Source: a bacterium | GTDB taxonomy: Bacteria > CAIWAD01 | Direction of reading: 5' to 3' | Assembly: GCA_030685015.1 (NCBI GenBank) | Contig: JAUXWS010000040.1 | Coordinates: 1-38,214 of the forward strand | Length of the DNA: 38,214 nucleotides | Shown here: piece by piece, positions 16,683-19,305 of the stretch | Numbering within the stretch: position 1 is the first letter of the stretch | How the letters are laid out: every line of letters starts with the position of its first letter | Made by a program: the position numbers and the translations under genes | The notes under the pieces: generated by a model | The model's database searches: none | The model's input: only the letters and a program-made list of their open reading frames with translations | Told to the model about the DNA's origin: nothing

Positions 16683-18326
16683 TCAGGCGCGATCGTCCTC
16701 GTCCCCGTCGCTCCAATCGTCTTCCAGCTCGTCCTCGTCGGGATCGATCAGCTCTTCCTCGTCCGGATCGAAGGGGGCCTCCACGTCGGGATCCCAGATG
16801 AGCGGATCGGCCTCCGGCCCCTCCACGTCCGGGTCCTCGTCCTCGTCCGGCTCATAACCGGGACGCCAGCGCTGGCCGGGCGTCTCGCCGCCCCCCAGGC
16901 CGAAGTCCTCCTCATCCTCCCGGCCGCGCTTGCGGCCGTCCTCCGCATGCAGGCTTTCCTCGCGCATGGGCATGTCCTCCGGCGCTATGGGTCCAAAGGC
17001 TCCCTGGAATTCGCCGCGCGAGCGGAGGTCAAGCCTCACCGGCACCCCGCGCAGGTCGAAGGCCCGCCGCAGGCGGTTCTCCAGGAAGCGCAAGTAATGA
17101 TGGTCCACATGATCCGGGTGGCTGCAGGCAAACACGATCCAGGGGGGATCGTTCCGCACCTGGCGCACCGCGCTGATGCGCACCCAGCGTCCCCCGTGGG
17201 AGGCGGGCGGCCGTCGTTCGATCTCCGGCAGCAGGGCCTGCTCCAGCACGGCGCGGGTCAGCTTCACGCGCTGCCGCTGGTGAAGCTCCCAGGCCAGGTC
17301 GAGCAGCCGGCGGGTGCGCTGGCCGGTCAAGGCGGAGATGAAGACCACCTGCACCCAGCCCAGGGTCGGGATCTTCTCCCGCAGCCGCCGCTCGTGGTCG
17401 CGGGCCGTGTTGGTCGCCTTGTCCGCCACCAGATCCCACTTGTTGACGGCCAGCAGCACGCCCTTGCGCGCGGCGATCGCCTCCTCCAGCACCTGGATGT
17501 CCTGGTGGGTGAGGCCCTCCTCGGCGTCCACGAGCAGGATGCAGACCTCCGCCCCCGTGATGGCGGCCTGGCTGCGCAGGGTGGCATAGAACTCCACATT
17601 CTCCTTGACCCGCGTGCGGCGGCGCAGGCCGGCCGTGTCGACCAGCACGTAGCGCCGGCCGTTGTGGCGGACCACGCTGTCAATGGAGTCCCGCGTCGTG
17701 CCCGCCACCGGGGTCACCAACACGCGGTCCGCTCCCAGCAGCCGGTTGACGAGACTGGATTTGCCCACGTTGGGACGCCCGATGATGGCCACGCGCAGGT
17801 CCCCCTCCAGGCCCGCTCGACCGCCTTCCGGCAGCAGGGCGACGAGGCGGTCGAGCAGGTCGCCGCTCTGGCGGCCGCTGATGGCGGAGACGGGCTGGGG
17901 CTCGTCCAGTCCCAGCTTCCAGAACTCGGCGGCCTCCAGCTCCAACCGCTCGTTGTCGGCCTTGTTCGCCACCAACAGACAGGGCTTGCCCTTGTCCCGG
18001 ATGTGGCGGGCCAGCAGTTGGTCCGTCTCCGTGATGCCGGTGGTGGCATCCACGACCAGGAGCACAAGATCCGCCTCGTCCAGCCCCATCTCCACCTGCT
18101 CGCGGATGGCCACGTCGAAGAGGTCGTTGCCCTCGGGCACGAAACCGCCCGTGTCCATGAGCATGAACTCGCGCCCGCCCCAGGCCGCCTCGGCGTAGTG
18201 GCGGTCCCGCGTCACACCCGGTTCGTCATGGACAATGGCCTTGCGGGCGTGGATGAGGCGGTTGAAGAGCGTGGACTTGCCCACGTTCGGCCGCCCCAGC
18301 ACCGCCACGATCGGTTTCGACCTCAT
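16683..18326 (-). CDS. der: Ribosome biogenesis GTPase Der (EngA) with a long acidic C-terminal tail
   Basis: Tandem-GTPase factor for 50S subunit assembly. The ATG at 18326 follows AGGA and gives MRSKPIVAVLGRPNVGKST. G domain 1 has GRPNVGKS (11-18), DTGG (58-61) and NKAD (121-124); G domain 2 has GRPNVGKS (183-190), then DTAG and NKWD. A KH-like domain ends near residue 448. The last 99 residues are an extra tail very rich in Asp and Glu (for example DPDEEELIDPDEDELEDD), bringing the protein to 547 residues against about 435-490 for most Der proteins. The tail is low-complexity and probably disordered. It keeps an open frame through to a normal stop, and the kinase gene starts 20 bases later. 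Confidence 0.95.
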   Translation of the reverse strand: MRSKPIVAVLGRPNVGKSTLFNRLIHARKAIVHDEPGVTRDRHYAEAAWGGREFMLMDTGGFVPEGNDLFDVAIREQVEMGLDEADLVLLVVDATTGITETDQLLARHIRDKGKPCLLVANKADNERLELEAAEFWKLGLDEPQPVSAISGRQSGDLLDRLVALLPEGGRAGLEGDLRVAIIGRPNVGKSSLVNRLLGADRVLVTPVAGTTRDSIDSVVRHNGRRYVLVDTAGLRRRTRVKENVEFYATLRSQAAITGAEVCILLVDAEEGLTHQDIQVLEEAIAARKGVLLAVNKWDLVADKATNTARDHERRLREKIPTLGWVQVVFISALTGQRTRRLLDLAWELHQRQRVKLTRAVLEQALLPEIERRPPASHGGRWVRISAVRQVRNDPPWIVFACSHPDHVDHHYLRFLENRLRRAFDLRGVPVRLDLRSRGEFQGAFGPIAPEDMPMREESLHAEDGRKRGREDEEDFGLGGGETPGQRWRPGYEPDEDEDPDVEGPEADPLIWDPDVEAPFDPDEEELIDPDEDELEDDWSDGDEDDRA

Positions 18327-18444
18327 GCAAACGTCCTGTGATTGAACCGCGACCCGTCCGTGCCCGGGCCAAGGTAAGGAGTGGAAGACGACATGATCGC
18401 GACTTGCCCCGTGCAGTGGATCTGCATTTTCGGGCAAAGGGTGC

Positions 18445-18473
18445 TTGCATGGTTGGTCGGCAACTGGTAGAAT
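18445..18473 (+). promoter_or_regulatory. Sigma-70-type promoter of the plus-strand RNA
   Basis: TTGCAT (18445-18450) and TAGAAT (18468-18473) are 17 bases apart, matching the -35 at 4 of 6 and the -10 at 5 of 6. Transcription would start near G18480. No plus-strand protein gene follows, but a foldable segment and a terminator do. Confidence 0.55.
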
Positions 18474-18479
18474 AGGCCC

Positions 18480-18661
18480 GTCTTTCGACCGATAGCAAAA
18501 CAGAACACTCACAGCATCAGATGACCCCGGAGGTTGACGATCCCTCGCCTCGTCGCGAGTGACAATAAGCTCCTTCTTTTACTGCTTTACATCCCCACAA
18601 AGCAGGTTTTAGGGCACAATCGGAAGGGCTGACCAACCCAGGTCGGCCCTTTCGACTTTTT
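18480..18661 (+). ncRNA. Candidate non-coding RNA, about 180 nt, 6S-RNA-like architecture
   Basis: The segment lies between a good promoter and a terminator on the strand opposite to all neighbouring genes and has no credible ORF. Pairings read from the sequence: CCGAT (18489-18493) with ATCGG (18619-18623) and AAAAC (18497-18501) with GTTTT (18606-18610) form a closing stem. GGAGGTTG (18529-18536) pairs with CAAT (18563-18566) plus CTCC (18570-18573), and CTCGC (18544-18548) with GCGAG (18555-18559), forming an apical arm. CTGCTTT (18582-18588) pairs perfectly with AAAGCAG (18599-18605) as a side hairpin on the 3' strand. A closing stem, a large central bubble with a 3'-side hairpin, and a terminal arm is the known plan of 6S RNA, which binds RNA polymerase. 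The length also fits. The 6S identity is inference; an unrelated small RNA is possible. Confidence 0.5.
18624..18661 (+). terminator. Rho-independent terminator of the plus-strand RNA
   Basis: AAGGGCTGACC (18624-18634) pairs with GGTCGGCCCTT (18641-18651) over 11 positions with one G-T pair, around a 6-base loop, followed by TCGAC and TTTTT (18657-18661). It works only on the plus strand, where no protein gene precedes it, and so marks the end of a non-coding transcript. Confidence 0.7.
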
Positions 18662-18835
18662 GGAGCGCAGCTGTGTCATCGCCCCAGCCAACGCTTGCTT
18701 GAGCCTGACGACCCCGCGTGTCCCGCAGCTTATCTGCACATGCTGCCACGTTGCGCTGCGACAACTGCGACGACCGGTCGCGGCGGGGGCGCGCATTCCC
18801 CAAGGACCCAAGCCCGCTTGGCCGCATGAAGGTGG

Positions 18836-18871
18836 AAGAGAAAAGGCCCGCATCCATTCAGATGCAGGCCT
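18836..18871 (-). terminator. Rho-independent terminator after apaG
   Basis: On the minus strand AGGCCTGCATC (18871-18861) pairs with GATGCGGGCCT (18854-18844) with one T-G pair and a 6-base loop, followed by TTTTCTCTT. It starts 23 bases past the apaG stop and insulates der and the RNA region from apaG transcription. Confidence 0.8.
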
Positions 18872-18894: not shown

Positions 18895-19305
18895 TTAGGA
18901 GACGCCCTCCAGCTGCTCATCCTCCTCCGCGACCAGGTAGAAGCGGCCGATCTCCACCGGGAAGGCTTCGCCCTGATCGTCCAGCACATGGAAGGATCCC
19001 TCCATCGTGCCGAAGGAGGAGCGGATGGGACAGAAACTGGTGTATTCGAAGGATTCGCCCGGCTCGAGCACGGGTTGCTCGCCCACCACCCCGATGCCGT
19101 CCACCACCTCCCGGTTGCCATCCGTGTCGATGATCACCCAGTGCCGCGACGCCACCATGACCGTGCGTCGGCCCAGATTCTCGATGAGGATGCGGTAGGC
19201 ATAGACGTATTGGCTGTTGTCCGGATCCGAGTGTTTGGGCAGATAACGGGGATCCGCCAACACCCGGATCTCCCTGGTCACACGTTCCGACGACTTGTGT
19301 CCCAT
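18895..19305 (-). CDS. apaG: ApaG family protein (Co2+/Mg2+ efflux-associated, DUF525)
   Basis: Small Fn3-like beta-sandwich protein of 136 residues. The family core is present: VYAYRILIENLG, SRHWVIIDTDGNREVVDG, GVVGEQPVLEPGESFEYTS and GTMEGSFHVLDDQGE, which are the most conserved ApaG segments. In enterobacteria apaG accompanies apaH and ksgA; mutants are affected in magnesium and cobalt handling, but the biochemical role is unsettled. The ATG at 19305 (MGHKSSERVTREI) is chosen for family length and an AAGGA site 10 bases upstream; a start at 19341 would add 12 residues. The gene stands alone, with a terminator behind it and no apaH or ksgA in the window. A third possible start further upstream would give 172 residues, too long for the family. 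Confidence 0.9.
   Translation of the reverse strand: MGHKSSERVTREIRVLADPRYLPKHSDPDNSQYVYAYRILIENLGRRTVMVASRHWVIIDTDGNREVVDGIGVVGEQPVLEPGESFEYTSFCPIRSSFGTMEGSFHVLDDQGEAFPVEIGRFYLVAEEDEQLEGVS

Follow-up and report, generated by a model that had tools for sequence, protein, structure and literature searches.

Among described RNAs, those closest to the locus reported here are 6S RNA, Ms1 and sX13. The free form of 6S-1 RNA from B. subtilis carries a hairpin in the 3′ strand of its central bubble (PMC8876501), and Ms1 RNA of Actinobacteria, restricted to its lineage, at first resembled 6S and turned out to be something else (PMC9130861). sX13 belongs to an established kind of sRNA with C-rich loops, for which Hfq is dispensable and which pairs with G-rich motifs near start codons (PMC3771888). 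In a 38,214-nt stretch of bacterial DNA (the window), we identified a real new RNA gene that is absent from RNA-family libraries: a small non-coding RNA of ~182 nt on the plus strand (18480–18661), structured and strongly conserved, with homologues in three related genomes (G001, G002 and G003). It has a promoter and an intrinsic terminator of its own, and both are conserved. An earlier sequence-only reading had proposed an unannotated plus-strand RNA gene with 6S-like folding at this position; our analysis bears out the gene, and 6S identity as stated is not supported.

The RNA unit is flanked by two minus-strand genes assigned with Pfam, der (start codon near 18325) and apaG (stop codon near 18895), and is divergent to der, in agreement with the orientation opposite to its neighbours that had been claimed for it. 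Directly downstream of apaG, a minus-strand terminator-like hairpin of 12 pairs (18844–18871) parts that gene from the RNA gene region. The promoter (18445–18473, plus strand) consists of a −35 TTGCAT (18445–18450), a 17-nt spacer and a −10 TAGAAT (18468–18473), directly followed by a GC-rich discriminator, AGGCCC (18474–18479), and from its position we infer an RNA 5′ end at G18480. Because the −35 matches the consensus TTGACA at only three of six positions, a generic sigma-70 scan did not report this promoter. A pattern search of both strands of the window found TTGCA[TC]-N17-TANNNT once, and this promoter is common, with exact spacing, to all four near-complete genomes sampled from the phylum (TTGCAT-N17-TATTCT in the sister genus, G003). 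The −35/−10 pair read earlier is present in the window as described. In the same-class genome G004, the region upstream of the SRP RNA gene on L123 contains TTGCAT, 16 nt and TATATT, which hints that stable RNAs of this phylum may often have TTGCAT as their −35; upstream of the SRP genes of the other genomes, TTGCAT was not clearly seen.

Our phylum sample comprised five genomes, four of them near-complete: three of one genus (the window genome, G001 and G002, which were compared as congeners) and one of a sister genus (G003). The fifth genome, of the same class and outside the family, is 67% complete, and the RNA had no match in it. A DNA search of 41 genomes matched the RNA in the two congeners and the sister genus, and a pattern search of the five phylum genomes gave exact matches to the linker GCAGGTTTTAGGGCACAA in each of the four that are near-complete. 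A further occurrence of the linker, on L092 of G003 and with 2 mismatches, lacks the hairpin and terminator and was taken as chance. Among the congeners, the most conserved part of the RNA is an 88-nt 3′ core (18574–18661, plus strand), with 95.5–98.9% identity, as compared with 73–76% for the apical arm, 53–66% for the 5′ segment, 62–70% for the promoter, 76–78% for der, 63–74% for apaG and 20–34% for the spacers on both sides. Conservation of the core exceeds that of neighbouring spacer and coding DNA, and a conserved island of this kind between unalignable spacers is, as judged from sequence comparison, the hallmark of functional DNA.

Among 386 genomes, a covariance model built from the 3′ core recovered the four family members at E values of 5e-24 to 8e-20; all other matches had E > 2e-4, and in the five alignments read from among the best of these, the match is confined to the terminator hairpin. 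By these searches, the RNA is confined to one family within the genomes sampled. It stays beside the der gene cluster in two genera; in the sister genus, an AI-2E-family gene lies between the RNA and der and the flank on the other side is now a DUF3108 gene. The intervening gene (L007 2269–2775) matches only positions 183–320 of the 327-position AI-2E transporter profile and is therefore probably truncated or mis-started.

The minimum-energy fold of the RNA is better than that of all dinucleotide shuffles (z −3.8, 0/200 shuffles as good), a surplus owed in good part to the terminator. This Rho-independent terminator (18620–18661, plus strand), which a terminator scan also reports, has 15 pairs at 18620–18655 followed by TTTTT at 18657–18661; the sequence-only reading had correctly seen a terminator with T5 and had underestimated its stem at 11 bp. 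In the terminator of G003, four pairs are changed on both sides in a compensatory way, where shuffles average 0.9; at least four compensatory pairs were reached in 2 of 500 shuffles, and sliding the partners destroyed the signal. The remainder of the conserved 3′ half comprises a pyrimidine tract, a 7-bp hairpin with a C-rich loop, and GGUUUUAGGGCACAA. The hairpin (CTGCTTT/AAAGCAG, loop ACATCCCCAC, 18582–18605, plus strand), present as described earlier, is kept in all four genomes, with six of seven pairs invariant and the seventh open in G003. Its C-rich loop ACAUCCCCAC is invariant in the three congeners and is of a UUUCCU type in the sister genus, where the CCCC is not kept. The linker GGTTTTAGGGCACAA (18605–18619, plus strand), whose first G closes the hairpin, is identical in all four genomes. 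Both the loop and the pyrimidine tract (CUUCUUUUA) are predicted to be mostly unpaired in all four (0.68–0.91 and 0.76–0.85, respectively).

The 5′ half is more variable. The apical arm (GGAG...CTCGC/GCGAG...CTCC, 18529–18573, plus strand) is likewise present as proposed and shows one compensatory pair in G001 (CTCAC/GTGAG, G-C to A-U), and G003 has an unrelated arm in its place. The 5′ segment GTCTTTCGACCGATAGCA (18480–18497, plus strand) contains ATAGCA in each of the four genomes, at +13 or +14 (by eye). Its GTCTT is able to pair with AGGGC (18611–18615), an arrangement that the predicted fold prefers together with GACC paired to GGTT. This stem is part of the minimum-energy fold in two of the four genomes (the window genome and G002) and has pairing probabilities of 0.07 in G001 and 0.0 in G003, with variation on one side only. 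The 5′ architecture given here is a prediction from four sequences, three of them close.

As the best explanation for these features, we tentatively propose a structured small RNA, encoded by a stand-alone gene specific to this lineage, that acts in trans, free of Hfq, via its 3′ module, most likely as an antisense regulator. The promoter, the 3′ module, the terminator and the location divergent to der are all conserved. A free RNA of ~180–205 nt would be transcribed from its own promoter and would act without Hfq through the 3′ module, where the single-stranded pyrimidine tract and the C-rich hairpin loop (UUUCCU as the equivalent in the sister genus) would, most likely, pair in several mRNAs with purine-rich ribosome-binding regions, and where the 3′ hairpin, together with the very stable terminator, would expose the loop and shield the RNA. 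Searches for Hfq (PF17209) gave no match over the cut-off in the five phylum genomes, and the control was detected. Since the 3′ module is fixed, the loop and tract are predicted to be largely unpaired, Hfq was not found and sX13 offers a precedent, an Hfq-independent antisense regulator is the reading we favor. An antisense search with the linker TTGTGCCCTAAAAC returned the gene itself and unshared single matches, with no shared target; in that search, GTTTTAG, considered for a CRISPR/tracr resemblance, showed no repeated complement.

The main rival to an antisense sRNA is a highly diverged 6S- or Ms1-like RNA that is predicted to bind RNA polymerase, which we consider unlikely, though worth serious weighing. 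The 5′ end would close on AGGGC, the AUAGCA region would form the 5′ strand of the central bubble, and the 3′ hairpin would lie in the 3′ bubble strand, an arrangement seen in free B. subtilis 6S-1 RNA (PMC8876501). A size of 180–205 nt, the GC-rich discriminator and the stem between the 5′ end and AGGGC in half of the genomes are consistent with such an RNA, and the 6S slot is vacant because no recognisable 6S was found elsewhere in the five phylum genomes. However, the locus (18300–18800) and its homologous loci gave no relevant Rfam match even at E ≤ 10, with neither RF00013 (6S) nor RF01685 (6S-Flavo) matching there at such permissive E-values. In whole-genome searches of the five phylum genomes, RF00013 gave nothing over its cut-off and was detected in control genomes, and the RF01685 search was empty, as it was for the control genomes. 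SRP RNA (RF00169) did not match the locus either, and the true SRP RNA is located elsewhere in all five genomes.

The closing stem invoked for 6S identity (CCGAT/ATCGG, AAAAC/GTTTT) is a string match in the window genome, but it is not part of the minimum-energy fold (−51.5 vs. −58.2 kcal/mol when forced in the window sequence, a cost of 6.7 kcal/mol) and is broken in relatives (CCGAT/ATCGG in 3/4 genomes, AAAAC/GTTTT in 2/4). Neither this stem nor the pairing of the 5′ end with AGGGC is conserved by covariation, and the latter is improbable in G001 and G003; as a weaker alternative closing stem in the predicted folds, it keeps a 6S layout conceivable. A central bubble between two arms, with a hairpin on its 3′ strand, appears in the folds of the window genome and G002 and is absent from those of G001 and G003. 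A central-bubble-like layout is what may stand of the 6S architecture. Conservation resides in the 3′ half with the terminator instead of in a rod with two arms, and G003 has not kept the apical arm. Given the resemblance of the 3′-bubble hairpin to that of 6S-1 and the apparent lack of another 6S, we retain a divergent polymerase-binding RNA as a minority reading.

A protein-binding RNA, serving as a sponge or scaffold with the 3′ hairpin, the GGUUUUAGGGCACAA linker and the terminator as its candidate site, is also improbable in our assessment without being negligible. The near-identity of 88 contiguous nt, in paired and unpaired bases alike, goes beyond the needs of secondary structure, and protein binding could equally explain conservation of the whole 3′ core, terminator included; on the other hand, binding motifs repeated in the manner of CsrB are absent from the RNA, and the proposal comes without a candidate protein. 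It would likewise be somewhat surprising, although it deserves consideration, if the RNA represented the first of a new class of RNAs that bind RNA polymerase and take the place of 6S in this phylum, or if it founded another new class of housekeeping RNA that functions through the near-invariant 3′ module.

We regard it as highly improbable that the RNA is the terminator-bearing leader of a plus-strand gene (an attenuator or a riboswitch). Such a leader could draw on the proposed competition between the terminator and a 5′ pairing of GTCTTT with AAGGGC, and this pairing can be drawn. Forcing it, however, costs 16–22 kcal/mol relative to the terminated fold across the four genomes (18 kcal/mol in the window sequence), and the pairing is weakened in G003; at that cost in the final RNA, the predicted competition could matter only transiently. 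Moreover, the next downstream gene lies on the opposite strand in the window genome, G001 and G003. Reading the locus as a gene for a small protein, or as an element of the minus strand, in place of an RNA is scarcely credible: the ~180-nt segment described earlier as ORF-free does contain a 13-codon ATG frame (18521–18562), but that frame is shifted and not kept in relatives (alignment, by eye), the indels are not multiples of three, and a plus-strand RNA accounts for the T-run, the promoter and the compensatory pairs alike.

The gene adds a well-delimited RNA family, with a promoter, a terminator and a near-invariant 88-nt core, from a phylum near Bacteroidota that has been poorly sampled. 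Searches of the five genomes of this phylum that were examined turned up neither 6S RNA nor Hfq. Binding to RNA polymerase, if it occurs, would put the RNA in the vacant 6S slot; pairing with mRNAs, if that is its mode of action, would make it a regulator that works without Hfq.

With 6S RNA (RF00013) and 6S-Flavo (RF01685), the RNA has in common a length of ~180–200 nt, a stand-alone gene and a possible bubble with a 3′-side hairpin; it differs from both in giving no covariance-model match, in a closing stem that is not conserved and in conservation that falls in the 3′ half with the terminator. Ms1, from another phylum, is longer (~300 nt) and binds core RNA polymerase. Like sX13 of Xanthomonas (PMC3771888), the RNA is stand-alone and carries a hairpin with a C-rich loop, with Hfq apparently uninvolved. 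In contrast, sX13 is 115 nt long and has three C-rich loops, and the likeness drawn here is one of loop type. This loop type is also that of S. aureus RNAIII and the UCCC-loop RNAs, which stand alongside sX13 as C-rich-loop sRNAs.
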